DNA of 64,000 nucleotides from Lagopus muta (lineage: Eukaryota; Chordata; Aves; Galliformes; Phasianidae): assembly GCF_023343835.1 (NCBI RefSeq), contig NC_064437.1, forward strand, positions 1,250,001-1,314,000. The letters are read 5' to 3'. A model generated the notes under the pieces. It had not been told where the DNA came from. It saw only the letters and a list, made by a program, of their open reading frames with translations, and ran no database searches. This document shows positions 23,750 through 34,329 of this stretch, piece by piece (positions within the stretch are counted from its first letter, which is position 1; the number at the start of each line of letters is the position of its first letter). Both the position numbers and the translations under genes were made by a program.

Positions 23750-24376
23750 TCAAAACAATCTCCCGATGCTCTGTGGAAAGCAGGTCTGTATATCCACAGA
23801 TCCTCTATTCGTTGCCCTTAAGCAAGAAACCAGCTCATCTGGAACCAAGGTTTGTTCCTGAGCTCCTTCACTGTACAGTGTTTTTTCCCACTGGTTTTCC
23901 AAAAGTGTATTTTGTTCCTCCTGGGCAGAGCTGAACGCGTGGTTTTGCCCGCTTCTGTCGTTGTTTAAAACCAGGTTGATCTTATCCAGCAGGCAGATCT
24001 GGGGCCCTTCAGCTCCTTGAGCATCCCACAGGTAGCTGAAGGGGCTGCTGTAGTCTCTGAAGAAAATACTTGTCTCTGGTTCTGGAGGTGGTGTGTAGGG
24101 CTGTATTAGGCCGATGTTGGCAGCTACATATCCCAGTGTGTTTGCATCAGAGATCTGGGGTTTGTAGTCACCGACCTGCTCCGTGGCCGTGCTGTGGGGG
24201 GGTGCTGAGCTCTGTGGGTGCTCCACGTTCTCAGGGACCACGCTGCTGGGTTCCTTTTTGATGTCCACCTTCTTGTATCTCTTGTGCCCTGACAGCTCCT
24301 GTATTTCTGTAATTGTGGGGTCACTGTTATCCGGGACCGGCCCACTGAAAATGCTGCTTGTGAATTCACTCTTTTC
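23750..24376 (-). CDS. IL23R: IL23R cytoplasmic tail exon
   Basis: A phase-0 terminal exon of 627 nt including TGA at 23752-23750. It contains DYKPQIS (Tyr at 24166-24164, residue 647), matching human GYKPQIS with its STAT3-site tyrosine. The C-terminal block ([25 protein letters not shown]) is close to the human tail (LSLILNQ, MLLEN, EQTLLPDEFVSCL). Other tyrosines include GYVAAN and [10 protein letters not shown]. Confidence 0.95.
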   Translation of the reverse strand, partial: EKSEFTSSIFSGPVPDNSDPTITEIQELSGHKRYKKVDIKKEPSSVVPENVEHPQSSAPPHSTATEQVGDYKPQISDANTLGYVAANIGLIQPYTPPPEPETSIFFRDYSSPFSYLWDAQGAEGPQICLLDKINLVLNNDRSGQNHAFSSAQEEQNTLLENQWEKTLYSEGAQEQTLVPDELVSCLRATNRGSVDIQTCFPQSIGRLF

Positions 24377-27300
24377 CTAGAAAAGAAAAGGATGACTGCA
24401 CTAACAAACAGGCAAATGTTACCAATAGGAGTGATATCATGGGAGGACCACAAGGGGGAAATGGGACAATGACTTCTTGGTCTTCATCTCAGCATCCTCT
24501 TCTCTTTCCTCCAATCACCACCACAAAGCAGATTACAGTGAGATGTGGAGAACAGGCAGAAGAGCTGCATATCTCCATGTTTACATGGACACCTCGAGGT
24601 CAGCTTGATTCGGTTCTACTGCATGAAATTTATATCGAGACAAGGTCTAAAGATCAAGCTAAGCTGGGTTCCGGTGCCCAGTGCAAATGGGAGGACAAGG
24701 ATTCTCCGAGTTCTACCTCCCCTAGGGCTGAACTCTTTTCTTGTCCATATTTCTCACACTTACAGAGTGATTTTCCATCTGAGTATCTGTAAGTGAAAAA
24801 AAGCTGGGATGCAGTGGTGCAATTACCTGGAAGGACTTTATCACCCTGCTGTTTTCCACGTGGGGGAAATCTTCAAGCAGCCATTTTGGCAAGACCAGTG
24901 CCACTGCTGCCTTAGTTCTTCATCAAAAAAAGAGAGAGAAAACAAGAGTTAGTCTATTTTGTTGTCACTCACTTGTCCATTCTGGATGAAATCGTCCCCA
25001 GGGTGGTGGGGGAACTCCAAGCGTGTTGCTCACTCATGGCCTTTGTGGAAGGCTCGGAAGCATTGGGTTTACAGACCCTTGTTCAGGTAGGTTTTCCCAT
25101 TTGAGCTCTCCATCCTGCTGCTCTGGGTTCCATTTGTGGCAGTGGTGGAGGGTGCTCAGCATAACAGTGATAAGACAAGGGGGAATGGCTTTAAACTGAG
25201 ACAGGGGAGGTTTGGGTTGGATAGGAGGAGGAAGTTTTTCAGCCAGAGGGTGGTGAGGCACTGTTCACAGGCTGCCCAAGGAGGCTGTGGATGCCCCATC
25301 CCTGCAGGCATTCAAGGCCAGGCTGGATGTGGCTCTGGGCAGCCTGGGCTGCTGGTTGGCGACCTGCACACAGCAGGGGGTTGGAACTGATGAGCGTTGT
25401 GCTCCTTTGCAACCCAGGCCATGCTGTGGTTCTATGGTAATGTCACACTGTGTGACACTCCCCAGTCTCTGCCAGTACCAGGGTGCAGATGTGAGGGGCA
25501 GCCAACAGACCCTGCAAGGGACAGCATTCTCTCCTCGTTCGAAAGTAGCAGAACCAAATTCTAGTACAAAACTTACATAAAGAGAGCTGTGTTTTTCCTC
25601 TCTCTTCTTTCACTCCCCCTGTATGCACTGTATAATAACAATATATCATGTGTCCCTAAGCCTAGCTTCAATGGGGGAATCATTTTTGCTCTTTCAGTTG
25701 TTTTCTCCCGTGCTGTGGAATTCACAGGTATCCTTTTCTGCAGCAGTGTGATCAATGGGTGCAGCTGCCCTCAGGGAGAGCTGAGCACAGAGAAAAGGAT
25801 CCGTTTCTGTAGTTAACTTTAAAGTATTCTGGAAGAAAAGCATGAAATAAGGAAAAAAATGTGACACAAGTGATACCTTTTCCTAGCTGATTTTTTCAAC
25901 ATCAGAATGACAAGAACCACAGATAATACGATCACACTGACACCCATTCCCAGGAAAAACCTGATGTCATCATCTGAAAAAAAAAGAAAAAAAAGGATAA
26001 AGAGGGAAAAAATTAATCAGGCAGCTTAAAGATGGTGTTTGTGGTCTGATTCCTCCCTTGTGAATAATTGTGCATCCACAATCAGTCACGCTGACCTCAA
26101 CTCCTCACATTCCTGTTGCTGTCCCTACAGGTTTACCCTCAGCTCTGATGGCCTGCAGGAAGAACGCCTGCATTTAAAGCTGGAGGCAGTGAAGCACCAG
26201 GCTGAGCACTGAGGGCCCTTTCCTGTGCAGATGGGAGCTGTAGGCAAGTAATTCTAAGAAGTGTGGTCATTGTGTTTAACCATTTCCCACGCAGAGGTAC
26301 CTTCCAGAAATGCTCAAGTGAATTTTTCAGTTCACGTCGGTTTTGTTTTGTTTTAAATACTGAAACGGATCACAGCATAACCTTTACCAGAACGCATGCA
26401 GAACACAACTGCAGTTAGAAAAATAGATGGGAAAAGTTTAAACAAGTCTTTGGCTCAGATTGTAAGGGCACAAGTCAGTCAGTGTTAGGCTACTGCGTCT
26501 GCTAACATTCCTTCTCATAGGCTGGATGTGGCTCTGGGCAGCCTGGTCTGCTGGTTGGTGACCCTGCACATAACAGGAGGTTAAAACTAGATGAGCACTG
26601 TGGTCCTTTTCAACCCAGGTCATTCTGTGATTCTATGATCTGTTATTTTCCTTATTTTCTTACCTCCAATTTTCCGGAATGTACATTTTATTACATGTCT
26701 CATAAGAAAACAAAGCTTAAATTGCAGGATGATGCGTGTTCTGCTCACTCTGCTCACTGCTTTCTCACTATGTGGCTTACTTTCCTGTCAAGTGAAAATC
26801 TCTTTTCTGGCTCTGACCTCTCCAAAATATGTGGAGTTTTCTCCTTTCCTAAATCTCCAGATGCCACACTTGCTGCTCTGGCCAAAACTCTTCTGCTCAA
26901 GCAGAAACTCTCGCTTACCAAGGCTGAAATACTCTGCTCTTACCATGCGAAACCTCCTGGTAGATGATGTCCAACATCCTGTCCTCCGAAGAAACTGCAG
27001 CAGAGAGAGGAAAAAATGCCCATCACTTCATTTACAGAAGTGGGTGAAGTAGAAGTTATTGTTAATTTTATTCATATTATTTAAAAAAATGGCTTCCAGA
27101 AACATGATGCCCCTCTGCAAGAACCACAGGCTGGTCGTGCTTAGGCTGACTGGCTTTGATAAGGACACAGCTAACATCCTCATCTGCAGTCTTGGAGCTG
27201 ACAGAGACAATTCAGAACACCCAGCACCACGTCCTGAGCTCATAGGCTGCTTGAGTCCACCTGGTAACTTCTACAAGAGTCACTGATCTGTGAGTTTGGA

Positions 27301-30300
27301 CTGATTTGGATGAAAAGGAGTGAAAACCATTTGGAATTCACAGTGATTTAATGAACCAATGACTGGTGGTCAGTGCACTGAGCTTGTCCAGGCCTGGCAA
27401 AGCCATGCAGGCACAGAGGAGAAATGCCCATCTGAATTCTGCTTTGCACCAGCTCCATAAAGACCAGCACAAACCCACAGGGAAAGCCTTCACTGCTTTG
27501 TAAAGCTATCCGTGTGCAGTTCTCCCTTCCAAACTCTGCCTACATGGTACTGTACCAGAGAGGCATGCAGCAATGTCAGCCCTGGTGTCCAACTGTATTT
27601 CATGTCACCAAGTTGGCACTGGGCTTTGACCTGAGCTGACCCGGCTAATGTTGCAGCTGTTTCAGCAAAGCTGTAATGAAATTCTCTAGCAAAAATCAGG
27701 GGCAAGAAATCATGGAAAAGGTCTTTAATTTTGTATATTTGAGACAAATGCTTTTCCTAGCAAGTACTTCAATTCCCTCACACAGAGCAGCTTAGAGGGA
27801 GAGCACACTCAGCTCCACATTACAAAGCAGCCCTTGGTTATGTGGAATTGTGGAAGGAAAGTGCCTGAGCCAACAACTCAGCAGCACTGGAATGAAGCAC
27901 TTGTGGAGGACGGTGTCACACTGGCACATTTAGCTGTGGAACAGCTCTGGGGCTGCTGGGAGGTGTCTTCTGCACTCAGCTTTTGGGCTGTGCATGGCTT
28001 GTTCTGGCTTAGGAAACGGCCATCAGGATGTGCAGCTCCTGAGGGCAGTCACAGCCTACACACATTGCTGGAGACGAGAAATAGATTGTTCTTACTGTCT
28101 CTTTTAATCGGCCCATGCCCTATTTAATATTAAATACTTTCCAGAACTGAAGCCTGCCTACATCCAGCTCCAGGTGAGATGAGACTGGCTGCAGCTTGGC
28201 CGGTTCTCTGTCAAAGTTGGCTTTGTTTTGTCTTTACTTTAACAACTGCCAAACAGGGAAAGCAGCAACCTCATCTGCTCCGTCCCAAAAAGGGAGAATG
28301 ACTCCAGTGATGTATTTTGTACAGTAAGATGCAATTCTCAGGTGTGCTGTTAGAGATCTGTGCATGATAGCAAGGAGTATCAGCTAGAAAAGGCTTTCAT
28401 AGAGGTGTGTTAAAGTCTGCAGTGTGTCCTGCAGCCATAAGATTTCCTTCTAGACCTTGCTTTTCTCTCTGGTCCACGGCAGGCTTTTACCTCTTGTTTC
28501 TAAAACTACAAAACTGGCAGACTGTGAGGATACCACCAAGCTGAGCTCTGCAGCTCCACCACAGCAGGCAGCAATTTCTACACACAGAGCTCACCTTGGC
28601 CAGAGCTTGGTTTGCTCACTCCGTCTGGGTAGGCTGCATACACTGACACACTGATGTGGCTTCCTGCTGCTGCATCCTCTGGAAAGAAGCAATAGTTGCC
28701 TTTAAGTTGTATCTATTAGCTGCTTTTAAAGCTGTGGATTTGCTCAAGAGCTTCTGATAGAGCAGTGAAAGGAGAGGAGGTGTGGGGTTTACAGATGAAA
28801 GGGCAAAGGCTTGGCCAGATAACTGTTTAGGAAGTGCCCTGAAGCCAACAAACACCAGAATGAAGGTGGGAACCAGGAGACAGGTGGGACAGGTCTGAGA
28901 TCTCGCTGCTGCTGGGCTCGCAGGTTGGCCATTGCAGGGCCATGAGCCCTGGCCATTACAGGGTGAGGAGATGAGCTGAAGTTGCAGCCTCATTACATCA
29001 AGTGTTTTGCCCTCTCTCTCTGTATAAATGCACATCTGTATTTCTGTGCTTTCACAAGCTCCAGGCATTATCCTACTTTCACTCCCTGCCACCTTGCTCA
29101 TCTCTTCCTTCTCTTTCTCTGCCTCTTTTTCCCTCCTGGCCTTCACCTGTGGGACCAAATGCCACTGGGTGCCCTCAAGTCTTCTATCACTTCGCTCTTG
29201 AATGCTCCCATGCTCCAAAATCAAGTGGGCAGGGGCTCAGTTCCAAATGAAGTATTGATTTTACAACACCTTGACAATCTGCACCCAACAGCAAAAAGGA
29301 CTCTTGGATATCTTACCTTGGATGTAGGTGTGGGTGTCCTGGCCTGGGACTTTCTTCCAAAAGAACTCTTCCTCGTGGCTGTATGGAGCTGTACAAACCC
29401 ACTCCACTATGTACCAGAGTGGGGGGGTCCTGCTGTGCCGGGGGGGCTGCCAGGCCACCAATATGGTGCTCTGGTTCTTGTGCTGCACATCCACAGCCAG
29501 TGGTGGTGGGAAGGCTGCAAAGAGAGGAGGTGGCATGAGGAGCTGTAGTGAGAGCAGTGAGATTGGAGGGCTGCTGTGCCGGAGGGGGTACGGGCTGGGG
29601 GGGGGGGAGGAGATGTTCTTGGAAGCAGTGATTTAATATCTCCATCTACGTCTGTCTGTCTGTCTCTATATTTGATATTGAGATATACACACACATGCAT
29701 GCCACACAAAAGCACGTGTTCAGTTTTGTCATGTCTCCTCCGTCTGAAATGCTTTACCTGACAGATTTACAGGAAACCCGTGTGATTCTGATCAGGAGGA
29801 GATTAGAGAATTTTTTCCACCTTGTTTATACAGCAAAGCATCTATTTAGTCACACTCACTGTTTGTCCTTCATTTGAATGGGACTTTCCCCTCCCATTGC
29901 TCACAAAAAAGAGACATTTTCAAAAATAGGAAAGTGCGGCCGTGGGGAAAACCACAACGTGTGGCACAGGGAGCCTGAGGCACCCAGGAGCCTTTTTCGT
30001 CCCTTCATGCCTGGCAGCTCCAGCTCCTGGCCTGGACACTCTGGCTATTTTGGGAGCTGCGAGCACGGACGGTGCCCTGCCAGCAGGACAAGCTTATTTT
30101 TAAACTCCTTGCTGCAGCTTTCGGAGGCGAAGCGCTGAGCTGTGCTGCTGGGGCATCTCCAAGGACTGTGGCCTTGTCTGGAGGACACTGCGTTCCCTTG
30201 GCAGAAGGGCTCCGCTCTCGCTTTAAACCCACGTGCGTGCACGATAACGTTTCTCCCCTCGCCATTCAGATAAAAGGCCGAAGCAGGCGAGCTCGAAGTC

Positions 30301-33300
30301 CCACCTTCCGGGCTGGGGTCCCGGCGGAGCGGCACACGGGCAGGGCTCGAAGCCCCCCGGGCGTTGTAGGCGGTGACGCGGAGGTCGAGCAGTGCTGGAG
30401 GCAGGAGGAGGCTGCAGGCTGTGCTCGACGTGTTGCATAAAGGACGCGAGGCTCCGGCCCAAACGACGTAACCCAGGATGGGTGTGCGAGCATCGCGGGG
30501 CGGCTGCGGGGGGCGAGAGGTGGGGATGGGGATGGAGTGGGGATCGTGGTGGGGATGGGGATGGGATGGAGATGGGGTCCCCGCCCTCTGATGCCGTCGT
30601 CACCGTCATTCGGTCGCTGCGGCGAGCGAAGCGTTGCTTGCTACTGCCCCTTAGTGTTTGGAGCTAACGTGCTAAAAGAGAACAAGAGCCGCCCCGAAAG
30701 GGCCTTACCTTGATCAAGACTGTCACCTCGTGGCTGCCGTTGGGGAACTTCCGGCCCAGCCGCCGCCACACGTCGGGTGCTGCCGCGGGGGCTGAGGGAC
30801 ACAGCCGGGACGTGCCCTGAGATGCCCACGTCGGAGCATCGCCTGCGTGCCCATTTCTGGCTGCCCTGAGCCCCCGGGCCGGACTGTGTCACACCGAGGT
30901 GACGGTGTGTGGGAAAGGATAAGAGCTGCCCTGGGCTCCTCGCCCTGCTGCTGCCGGCCAGAATATCTCAGCTGGCTTCACCCAGTCCCATCCTGGTGCT
31001 GATAGCCCAGTTTCAAAGGGGAAAGGCTGCCATGAGGGGGCTGGGGGACCAATCATGGCATTGTAGAATCGTCTGAGTTGGAACAGGCTTTTAAAAACCA
31101 CCTGGTCCCACTCCCTGCAATGAGCAGGGACACCCACAGCTCCATAGGTGCTCAGAGCCCCATCCCTGACCTTGGGTGTCTGCAGGGCTGGGGCACCCTG
31201 CCTCTATGGGCGCCCTGTGCCACCGCCTCACCTCCCTTAGTGTAAAGAACATTCTCCTTACTTCCCATCTAAATCTCTCCTCTTTTAGTTTGAAGCCATC
31301 TCCTCTTATCCTATCAAGGACACATCCTACTAAGGAGTCTGCCCCCTTCTTCCCAATTTACTGGAGGAAAGCAAGTTACCAAAGATGGAAAAACACACCG
31401 AATCCCCCCTTTTTTTGGAGTCTGCACAGCTCAGCACTTCTGCAGCGACCTCAAGAGCCAGACAAGCCACCAATGCACACAGCACAGCGTGGCCCTGCAA
31501 TGCCCTACCACCACTTACCAGCCTCAGGTGTGCTGTAGATGAAGGGCAGACCCCAAGCACTCCAGGGGCTGCCCGCAGCGCTGAGCCGGCACCGTGCCTG
31601 GAACACGTAGCTGGTGGCACTCTGAAGTTGGTGTCCACGCTGCACTGCACTGTCCCATGCTGTCACCTGCAGGGCAAACAGGCAATAGGGCCACCACGCT
31701 CACCTGGGGACGCTCAGCCCACTGAGCACGTGGTGCTGCTAAACCCACAGTGCAGCCCAGCCTGGGGGTCTGCTGCTGAGGAGAAAGCAGTGGGTGAGCA
31801 CAGCCGGAGAGCGTGAGCAGGTGCCCATGCTTGGCACAGCAGTTGGGCTTTTTCAGGTTTCCCTGCACCACTTTGGAGCTCATGTAGTACACATGGTGGG
31901 AATGATCTTGGAGGTCTTTTCCAGCCTTAATGACTCTGTGATTCTTTGATTCATATGCATTAAAGTCAGGGGAAAGACAACTGAACCCATTTAACCCAGG
32001 ACACCGCAGAGCTCTGTCCCACTGGCACCGGGCCAGTCCCCCATTTTGGCAGCTCTGCTGAGTGCTGGGACTGAGGGTCAGCCATCTGCCAGCCCCAGGG
32101 AGGGCTCCAAAAAGGACCTTGGTGCAGTTTGCCCAAGTGTAGTTGTGTGTGTGTCGATGAGGAGGGAATTGATTAAGTGGGTGTTTGCTGAGCACCACCA
32201 GTGGCCTTTTTGCACCTTGCCCTTGCAGAGCTAGATAAGATTTACAAATATGACAATTTCTGCTTTTTGCTTAAAGAAGCAGAGTTAATGCTAATGGAAA
32301 GGCTGTTCTACCCACCCTGCTCCCCAGGGACCCCAACCCGTGGCTCTACAATAGGGCCTTTGGGGCTCAGTGCCATCTCACCTGCCACTCCGCAGCACCC
32401 ACTGCCTTGTGCCGCTCCTCGCAGCGCACGTCCTGCAGCTCCGTCTGCTGTCGCCAGTGGATGGTGGTGGTGGGAGGTGACCCCGCCGTCGTCTCCGCGC
32501 TCTCAGCCAGGGGAACGGCGGGCACCACTGCAGGGAGAGCAGCAGCCATCAGCCGGGGATCACAGCACCGTGTGGGCACGGTGTGCTGGAGATGCCCGTG
32601 GTTGCAGCCCCAGCGCAGGGCACGGTGTGTGCCGCGGCGTACCGAGCTGCTGCAGGTCGAGGTGCTGAGGAGCTGAGCGTGCCGTGCCCAGTGCATTGCT
32701 GGCCTGCACCCACGCCAGGTAGTGACTGCTGCCATTCAGTGCACTCAAGGGCACCGGTGCATCCGTGGGGAACACATCCTCCTGCGCCGTCTGCGTGCTG
32801 TGGGGCAGAAAGCAGCCACGCTCAGAGCCCTGCGTGGGGAACAGTCATCTCCAGAGCTGCAGTTTTTCACTCTCCAAGTGAACTAGCAAATCATTTTCTT
32901 TGGTTCCTGGCACTGCTGCATGGCATTCATGTTTCTGCTGCAGGAAGGGAGTTCCCACAGCTCGCTCAGGCTGCAGGGTTCAGAGTTTGCACCCCAGGGG
33001 CTCCTTTGGTGGTTCATCAGAAAACCCACACAGACTGCACGTAATTGAATAGCAGAGTGGGTTGAGAATGAAAGCCCAGCCGCCTCACGCCGTGGGGGCT
33101 TGGCCTTGCATGTGGCACAGCATGTGTAGGGCTTGGGCAGGAAGGCCACTGGTTGTACCAGTCCTTATTTCCTCATGGCGTTTTTGTTTAGGTCCTTGGG
33201 CACCCTTAGGTTCATGCTGGGAATGGGGTTGCTGTGCACTGGGTGCTGGATGTCCAAGGAGGCTGTGGATGCCCCATCCCTGCAGGCATTCAAGGCCAGG

Positions 33301-34329
33301 CTGGATGTGGCTCTGGGCAGCCTGGGCTGCTGGTTGGCGACCTGCACACAGCAGGGGTTGGAACTGATAAGTGTTGTGCTCCTTTTCAACTCAGGCCATT
33401 CTGTGATTCTGTGATCTGGTTCCACAGTGCCTGTGTGCCCCTACCTGCGCAGGTGGAGGCTGTAGTTGGTGTGCAGCAGTGTCGGCTGCCCGGCGTCCCA
33501 TGTGCATGCCAGGCTCCCCGAGTGCTCAGGGATGGCACAGCTCAGGTTGGCGGGGGGGTCTGGGGGGTCTGCAGAGAGGCAGCATCAGCATCCCCACCTT
33601 CAGCCCCACCGCTCCCCCATCACCCCTAACCCCACAGCGGTACTCACAGCCGGCCCAGAGCTCCGTCCCACAGATCACCTCGTTCCAGTAGCTGTTGGGG
33701 CAGCGGGCAAGGCAGGTGATGATGCTGAAGGGCAGGCGGAAACCACGCAGCTGTAGCTGGGCTGCACTGCTGTTGAGAAGGCGTGGGGGACCCTCGGGGG
33801 CTGTGAGGTTGAGCAGGATGGAGAGGCTCGCCCACGGGCAGTTCAGCGCCGAGACACAGGTGATGGAGACGTTGGAACCCATTGGCACCACTGAGCCTGG
33901 CTCGATCCTCACGTGCCCCAGGCACCTGATTTGGGCAGCACCTGCGCAACGCTCACAGCTTCAGTGCAGCCCCCCAAGTGCAGGGTAAAGCCCGTGCAAG
34001 CAGCTGGTGACTCATTGCTCAGCTCGGAAACAGCCTCACCAGTTTTACCTTCTGCTCTAATGCTTGAATGACTGCAGGGAAATAACGCATAGACTGAAAG
34101 CTCTGATCCCTGAGATTACAGCAGCGCCCTGACTCGTGCTATCAGATTGGGGCTCTGCAGCAGCACTGATAAAGCTCATGCTCAAATGACATCAGCTCAA
34201 TTTGGCTTTCCTGGAACAGGCACAGCTATGCCATGCCGTGTTGTGCCATGCCGTGCTGGATGGCCACTTACCTCTGCCCAGGATGCAGAGCAGAATATGG
34301 AGCACGAAAGCCTCTCCGCCTCCCGCCAT
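23750..34329 (-). CDS. IL23R: Interleukin-23 receptor, with two extra FNIII domains
   Basis: IL-23-specific chain; pairs with IL12RB1 and signals through JAK2 and STAT3 (Th17, innate lymphoid cells). Coding exons on the minus strand: 34329-34272, 33941-33648, 33568-33445, 32797-32643, 32527-32382, 31666-31519, 30791-30709, 30503-30305, 29514-29317, 28678-28595, 26994-26944, 25973-25877, 24917-24827, 24376-23750 (TGA). They sum to 2355 nt, 784 aa, with every phase consistent. Order: signal peptide, Ig D1, cytokine-receptor D2-D3 with WSAWG (294-298), FNIII D4 and D5, 17-aa stalk, TM (about 518-541), cytoplasmic tail. Human-like stretches from memory: SGYPPD-type D1/D2 join, [39 protein letters not shown]. 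Human IL23R is 629 aa and lacks D4-D5. The start ATG sits in GCCATGG, a strong Kozak context. Confidence 0.94.
24827..25973 (-). CDS. IL23R: IL23R transmembrane and juxtamembrane exons
   Basis: Exon 25973-25877 encodes [20 protein letters not shown] and the rest of the helix up to the basic LKKSARK. Exon 24917-24827 completes Arg and reads [20 protein letters not shown], aligned with human RRILLLIPKWLYEDIPNM. The acceptor chosen (GATGAAG|A) is the one that keeps phase 2. Two downstream AGs are out of frame. Confidence 0.92.
25163..25438 (+). repeat. CR1 LINE 3'-end fragment
   Basis: A longer copy starting near GTGATAAGACAAGGGGGAAT, with GGTTTGGGTTGGATAGGAGG and the shared core, ending CATGCTGTGGTTCTATGG. 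It lies in an IL23R intron, antisense to the gene. Confidence 0.92.
26515..26638 (+). repeat. CR1 LINE 3'-end fragment
   Basis: Diverged copy: GGCTGGATGTGGCTCTGGGC, AGCCTGGTCTGCTGGTTGGT, ending CATTCTGTGATTCTATGA. It lies in the IL23R intron between the stalk and TM exons. Confidence 0.88.
26944..26994 (-). CDS. IL23R: IL23R short stalk exon
   Basis: A 51-nt exon, phase 1 to 1, between a strong acceptor (CTCTCTCTGCTGCAG) and donor GTAAGA. It adds [16 protein letters not shown] between D5 and the TM exon. It keeps the frame whether included or skipped, so it may be alternatively spliced. Support comes from splice sites, phase and position; the peptide itself matches nothing I recognise. Confidence 0.65.
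28595..29514 (-). CDS. IL23R: IL23R extra FNIII domain D5 (two exons)
   Basis: Exon 29514-29317 (198 nt) encodes [24 protein letters not shown] and [10 protein letters not shown]. Exon 28678-28595 (84 nt) encodes [20 protein letters not shown]. Both are phase 1 to phase 1. They mirror the IL12RB2 D5 exons of 201 and 102 nt ([25 protein letters not shown]). Donors are GTAAGA and GTGAGC. This domain directly precedes the short stalk exon. Confidence 0.87.
30305..30791 (-). CDS. IL23R: IL23R extra FNIII domain D4 (two exons)
   Basis: Exon 30791-30709 (83 nt, phase 1 to 0) encodes [19 protein letters not shown], matching the IL12RB2 exon that reads LLDVWYKK...LFWK. Exon 30503-30305 (199 nt, phase 0 to 1) encodes [11 protein letters not shown] and [18 protein letters not shown], a typical FNIII E-F-G strand end aligned with IL12RB2 [12 protein letters not shown] and [15 protein letters not shown]. 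Both have good acceptors (CCCTCAG, CCCCGCAG); the second donor, GTGGGA, is weak. The sequence is very GC-rich with many CG dinucleotides. Human IL23R has no equivalent. Confidence 0.83.
30518..30580 (+). repeat. GGGGAT-rich tract
   Basis: Runs of GGGGATGGGGATGG on the plus strand. On the minus strand this is the pyrimidine-rich CCCCATCCCC tract just upstream of the acceptor (30505-30504) of an IL23R FNIII D4 exon. Confidence 0.8.
31063..31350 (-). repeat. CR1 LINE fragment, minus orientation
   Basis: Plus-strand TTGTAGAATCGTCTGAGTTG, GAACAGGC and later CTGCAATGAGCAGGGACACC is the reverse complement of a CR1 3' end. It continues through CTCCTCTTTTAGTTTGAAGC. Sense to IL23R, within the intron between D3 and D4. 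Confidence 0.85.
31519..33941 (-). CDS. IL23R: IL23R Ig domain and cytokine-receptor module (D1-D3)
   Basis: Exons 33941-33648 (Ig-like, [20 protein letters not shown]), 33568-33445 ([17 protein letters not shown]), 32797-32643 ([14 protein letters not shown]), 32527-32382 ([17 protein letters not shown]) and 31666-31519 ([21 protein letters not shown]). Phases 1-1-2-1-0-1 match IL12RB2 exactly. The last WSXWS residue is Gly instead of Ser. Each exon has a counterpart in human IL23R, for example human VWVQAANALG and KYVFQVRCQ. Confidence 0.94.
31893..31953 (+). repeat. CR1 LINE 3' remnant
   Basis: Reads GGTGGGAATGATCTTGGAGG, TCTTTTCCAGCCTTAATGAC and ends TCTGTGATTCTTTGATTC. Confidence 0.8.
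33254..33418 (+). repeat. CR1 LINE 3'-end fragment
   Basis: Contains the shared core and ends GGCCATTCTGTGATTCTGTG. It ends about 27 bases from the donor of the IL23R exon 33568-33445. Confidence 0.9.
34272..34329 (-). CDS. IL23R: IL23R signal-peptide exon
   Basis: 58 coding nucleotides, the same length as the IL12RB2 signal exon, encoding [19 protein letters not shown] and ending in phase 1 at GTAAGT. An acceptor-like CCCCAG lies just upstream (about 34368), so a further 5' non-coding exon is possible. An upstream out-of-frame ATG lies at 34363-34361. Confidence 0.9.

Follow-up and report, generated by a model that had tools for sequence, protein, structure and literature searches.

Two membrane-near FNIII domains encoded by a bird IL23R gene point to a longer, most likely ancestral receptor ectodomain

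Is the short ectodomain of the IL-23 receptor (IL-23R), a drug target in which this form is taken as the normal design, the form in which the receptor arose? According to the excerpted text of a review, IL-23R has an unstructured stalk in place of three membrane-near FNIII domains (PMC7600943). Parts of an earlier comparative study describe a zebrafish il-23r with FNIII domains and no membrane helix, and say that tetrapods are without the FNIII repeats (Liongue and Ward, 2007; PMC1963337). The question is raised again by a stretch of 64,000 nucleotides from the bird Lagopus muta (contig NC_064437.1, positions 1,250,001 to 1,314,000; hereafter the window, in which all positions are numbered), where IL23R adjoins IL12RB2 and four of its exons encode two additional FNIII domains, D4 and D5. 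Taken as a whole, the reading that bird IL23R carries D4–D5, that these domains are ancestral, that they were lost in mammals and that they serve as a spacer is, in our judgement, likely.

IL23R spans 34329-23750 on the minus strand and lies head to tail with IL12RB2, which runs on the same strand from 13440 to below 721. Its 14 exons join into a single frame with a 784-residue product, and the 13 introns are all of the GT-AG type. Residues 21-308 of the product, which cover the first three domains, D1–D3, match IL23R chains in the PDB: such chains take the top four ranks, with E values from 5e-59 to 2e-57, and IL12RB2 follows (1e-37). With D1–D3 nearest to IL23R, a tandem position beside IL12RB2, and a membrane helix and tail in frame, the gene is, judged by its sequence, the bird orthologue of IL23R.

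The preliminary description of this locus had claimed that four exons placed after that of the WSXWS motif and before that of the stalk join in phase, and this is confirmed by the gene model. Exon D4a (30709..30791, minus strand like all IL23R and IL12RB2 exons given here; 83 nucleotides [nt], phase 1 to 0) encodes the first part of D4 with a DVW motif, and D4b (30305..30503; 199 nt, phase 0 to 1), which is also supported by similarity to IL12RB2, encodes the remainder. D5a (29317..29514; 198 nt, phase 1 to 1), likewise similar to IL12RB2, encodes FNIII D5 up to the end of the domain in D5b (28595..28678; 84 nt, phase 1 to 1). The phases thus run 1-0-1-1-1 as proposed, and all five junctions (31519-30791, 30709-30503, 30305-29514, 29317-28678 and 28595-26994) have GT-AG borders. 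The frame cannot do without D4a, since D3b finishes in phase 1 and D4b opens in phase 0; its size, its phase and a DVW motif like those of its counterparts also speak for it, and D4 of OSMR likewise opens with an LDVW motif. The four exons hold 188 codons without a stop or frameshift and eight intact splice signals, and their donors, scored with a frequency table, fall at the 98.0-99.9 percentiles relative to every GT site on the minus strand of the window. Three N-glycosylation sequons (NGS, NTS and NQS) can be read from the D4–D5 sequence. The D5 exon at 29514-29317 also encodes a lone cysteine (EWVCTAPYS) that has no partner within the domain and may be a free or interchain cysteine.

Together the four exons form a block of 564 nt that begins and ends in phase 1, as do its two halves, D4 (83+199) and D5 (198+84), of 282 nt each. 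Because of these sizes and phases, skipping of all four exons, of D4 alone or of D5 alone keeps the frame. The exons could be relics or an optional cassette that the main bird transcript skips to give a mammal-like D1–D3 on a short stalk. We consider this quite unlikely. The coding stretch, the splice signals and the strong donors described above are intact, whereas in a neutral simulation (4000 runs, indels ignored, distances assumed) the share of runs that retained both frame and splice sites was 18.7% at 0.05 changes per site, 3.8% at 0.1 and 0.2% at 0.2, and none of the 4000 runs did so at 0.3 or at 0.5. Skipping would also bring D3 to within about 23 residues of the membrane, and human or mouse IL-23R from which the stalk has been deleted is reported to form active homodimers (PMC7600943). 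Inclusion of the four exons in mRNA is thus the more probable case.

Against Pfam fn3, D4–D5 together give two fn3 stretches with 36.2 bits in all, and D5 (D5a+D5b) reaches 27.5 bits (cut-off 25); D4, D5 and D6 of bird IL12RB2 score 30.3, 35.4 and 34.5 bits. In PDB searches, IL12RB2 is the top match both for D4–D5 (E 1.3e-7, over D4b-D5a) and for D5 alone (E 0.00029, at IL12RB2 D5). Constructs of gp130 D4–D6 match both D4 and D5 (E 0.004) and rank behind several generic FNIII proteins, such as the unrelated contactin-4 (E 0.0005); a further weak match is the leptin receptor (E 0.015). The stretch that follows the cytokine-binding part and precedes the membrane helix thus encodes two FNIII domains, D5 identified by its fn3 score and D4 by homology to IL12RB2, with which the two align one to one.

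This alignment is one of the ties between the two neighbouring genes. As had been claimed, the D4–D5 exons of IL12RB2 measure 80, 214, 201 and 102 nt and have phases identical to those of IL23R; they lie at 7519-7440 and 5065-4852 (D4) and at 4371-4171 and 3368-3267 (D5) in the exon model. The D4a/D4b intron follows the same lysine in both genes and the D5a/D5b intron splits the same glutamate codon. The pairings D4 with D4 (z 7.7) and D5 with D5 (z 13.3) were each reached by 0 of 1000 shuffles, whereas z lay between -0.7 and 3.2 for ten other domain pairings, of which IL23R D4 with IL23R D5 scored highest. Exon D2b of IL12RB2 is intact, and identity in D2 is 37/92 (40%). When IL12RB2 exon proteins were used as queries against the 5.5 kb at 25974-31518 and against 14 control stretches of the window, D4b scored 58 and D5a 74, with control maxima of 43 and 39. 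D4a (28 vs 23-29 in the controls) and D5b (31 vs 25-37) scored no higher than the controls, and the best IL12RB2 D4a match inside 25974-31518 is not exon D4a; exon similarity by itself therefore cannot establish D4a or D5b, because their scores fall within those of the controls.

The third FNIII domain of IL12RB2, D6 (exons at 3180-3025 and 2213-2076 in the exon model), on which the preliminary description is silent, has no counterpart that could be found in IL23R: within 25974-31518 the scores reach at most 33 for D6a and 30 for D6b, against 27-46 and 28-46 in the controls. Since D4–D5 are present and no D6 trace was found, the loss or gain of D6 was probably an event distinct from that of D4–D5. 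Where D6 would be in bird IL23R (28594-25974) stands the stalk exon (26944..26994), which has 51 nt and phase 1 at both ends.

How old, then, are D4 and D5? The D4–D5 of bird IL23R share 27% identity with bird IL12RB2 and 28% with mammalian IL12RB2 (PDB 8odz), which share 42% with each other. For D1–D3, identity is 30% between bird IL23R and bird IL12RB2 and 36% between bird and mammalian IL23R (103/286 aligned residues). By this measure, D4–D5 look as old as the IL23R/IL12RB2 gene pair. A late gain by exon copying from IL12RB2 on the bird or reptile line, with mammals keeping an original short form, would equally produce tandem genes whose domains pair one to one. We regard it as improbable. 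A recent capture from bird IL12RB2 is unlikely because the two bird genes share only 27% in these domains vs 42% between the bird and mammalian IL12RB2, and bird IL23R is no closer to the bird than to the mammalian gene. Moreover, in a tree of D4–D5 (five receptor sequences with long branches, five topologies compared by the approximately unbiased [AU] test), the topologies that place IL23R inside IL12RB2 have the lowest AU values of the five (0.064-0.065), which are not rejected at 0.05. FNIII domains are, finally, reported for zebrafish il-23r in the part of the study that covers it (PMC1963337). The idea that the four exons are a separate gene or a gene-prediction artefact between D3 and the stalk could appeal to D4a and D5b, which individually have no significant similarity, and to the failure of Pfam to find D4 alone, but it has next to no probability given phases that fit D3b to the stalk, an order and intron places that equal those of D4/D5 in IL12RB2, and the absence of a second copy among the 14 matches listed from the 1.03-Gb genome (165 contigs).

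Several results weigh against the reading that D4–D5 are ancestral FNIII domains shared with IL12RB2. Pfam fn3 gives no match to D4 alone, and a PDB search with D4 alone finds nothing convincing, the best match being titin (E 0.65). In exon searches of the bird's own genome, IL12RB2 D5a is ninth of 14 matches with the IL23R query and IL23R D5a is 21st of 33 with the IL12RB2 query, both below generic matches; what ties IL23R to IL12RB2 is therefore the order of the domains, the positions of the introns and the alignment of each domain with its counterpart. The best topology of the tree unites IL23R with gp130 (support 73/61, AU 0.756), followed by IL23R with OSMR (AU 0.395), and the predicted placement of IL23R as sister of both IL12RB2 sequences comes third (AU 0.135). 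The AU test rejects none of the five topologies, so that this tree leaves the branching unsettled. As expected, no relative of the D4–D5 protein was confirmed in viral_contigs and genome_contigs (viruses and prokaryotes). The zebrafish il-23r resembles the bird gene in its IL12RB2-like FNIII domains and its synteny with IL12RB2, but the description at hand gives it no membrane helix, whereas the bird gene has one, and the two designs therefore differ (PMC1963337).

With these points weighed, the long ectodomain is still most likely ancestral, as judged from intron places equal to those of IL12RB2, the deep divergence and the zebrafish FNIII domains. The preliminary description had proposed as much; the contrast between fish and mammals had already been published in 2007. 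If the exons are used, the bird D4–D5 contradict the statement on tetrapods in PMC1963337. The mammalian line most likely lost D4–D5 as a frame-neutral cassette of 564 nt, a step that would be mechanically easy and cause no frameshift because both cassette ends are in phase 1; the absence of D4–D5 in mammals is taken from the human and mouse literature, and the bird side from one genome. The two extra domains of the bird gene suggest that the human receptor was shortened secondarily and did not start out in its present form.

Among known receptors, bird IL23R shares D1–D3 and the domain order with mammalian IL23R (PDB 6wdq, 5mzv, 8oe4 and 9mfg). It differs in that D4–D5 and some 23 stalk residues stand where the mammalian receptor, according to the excerpted review, has a stalk that is unstructured and lacks FNIII domains close to the membrane (PMC7600943). 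In its exon structure, the bird gene thus departs from the stalk-only mammalian form. Mammalian IL23R has a membrane helix and a tail, as the bird form does, and the human stalk is longer than that of the bird. gp130 has D4–D6 and a different set of ligands. The bird receptor fits the gp130-type (Group 2) layout in that its cytokine-binding part is separated from the helix by FNIII domains, with two of the three domains D4–D6. In gp130 (IL6ST; PDB 3l5h, 3l5i and 3l5j), an Ig domain, a cytokine-binding pair and FNIII domains follow one another as well, and its D4–D5 align in register with those of bird IL23R. IL12RB2 (PDB 8odz) has D1 to D5, intron places, phases and strand in common with bird IL23R and carries D6 in addition. 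In the sections on groups of a survey of 405 species, elephant-shark IL23R homologues fall in Group II ('1-2 fn3 at the C-terminus') and Group IV ('IL6Ra-bind, rarely followed by fn3'), and bird IL23R domains are not discussed there (PMC12162339). The portions of a medaka paper that treat FNIII domains assign them to IL-22 receptors (PMC8573258). In chicken, IL-23 acts via IL-12RB1 and IL-23R, and the parts of that dataset paper at hand do not describe the receptor domains (PMC5848064). No description of a bird IL-23R ectodomain was found among the matches listed (titles and abstract starts); annotated entries such as chicken gene models, which lay outside this search, may exist unpublished.

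The ectodomain of the bird receptor would consist of D1 (Ig-like), D2–D3 (the cytokine-binding pair), D4–D5 and roughly 23 residues of stalk; a single membrane helix and a tail for signalling would come next. In the gene model, the signal-peptide exon (34272..34329) is followed by D1 (33648..33941), D2a (33445..33568), D2b (32643..32797), D3a (32382..32527) and D3b with the WSXWS-like motif WSAWG (31519..31666), all of them apart from the first also supported by PDB matches. Beyond the stalk exon come the transmembrane exon (25877..25973), a membrane-near cytoplasmic exon (24827..24917), which we take to be Box1-like, and the last exon (23750..24376), which ends at the stop codon. These last three exons share the frame of the rest of the gene; the membrane helix was judged by eye, and the labels signal peptide, D1–D3, WSXWS-like, membrane helix and tail were assigned via homology and by eye.

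We propose that D4–D5 predate the tandem duplication that gave rise to IL23R and IL12RB2, that they were retained in this bird, and that they were lost as the four-exon cassette of 564 nt on the line to mammals. By homology, D1–D3 would bind IL-23 like their mammalian counterparts. D4–D5 would most likely form a stiff, glycosylated spacer that sets the height of the IL-23-binding head beside the partner chain, lets the membrane helices and kinases meet only once IL-23 bridges the chains, and stops IL-23R chains from pairing by themselves. By analogy, D4–D5 would then probably take the spacer job that excerpts of the review give to the human stalk (PMC7600943). The bird complex would be taller and stiffer than the mammalian one and nearer to that of IL-12RB2, yet one domain shorter than the latter because neither D6 nor a D6 remnant was found. 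Since each of the two domains is a 282-nt cassette that starts and finishes in phase 1, it is conceivable that birds also splice receptors of three heights. On the ligand side, the IL-23 p19 family (PF16649) has one partial match in the genome (C31:3068991-3069128, minus strand; 29.6 bits, cut-off 27); the ligand thus seems to be present, this match being a likely ligand gene of this genome.

The surroundings of the locus include exon pieces on the plus strand at ~37.5-43.7 kb that we take to be SLC35D1-like; Pfam gave no match for the three of these pieces tested. In mammalian gene order, SLC35D1 stands next to IL23R. At ~48-59 kb on the minus strand lie exons of a further gene, presumably MIER1-like, with an ELM2 domain in 52108-51725 (25.6 bits, cut-off 21.7).

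For the biology of the family, the finding would make the mammalian stalk a derived trait, provided that birds and fish both have the long ectodomain. We lean slightly towards the broader proposition that the shortness of human IL-23R, like the geometry of the solved IL-23 complexes that goes with it, is a mammalian invention through loss of D4–D5 as one frame-neutral cassette, and that birds, and probably other non-mammals, have a tall receptor like that of IL-12. A longer receptor in birds and fish would correct the published claim that tetrapods lack these FNIII domains, call for caution in modelling chicken IL-23 signalling after the human complex, and offer both a natural experiment on the way in which signalling depends on the height and stiffness of the receptor and a direct means of testing why a stalk is needed for silence.

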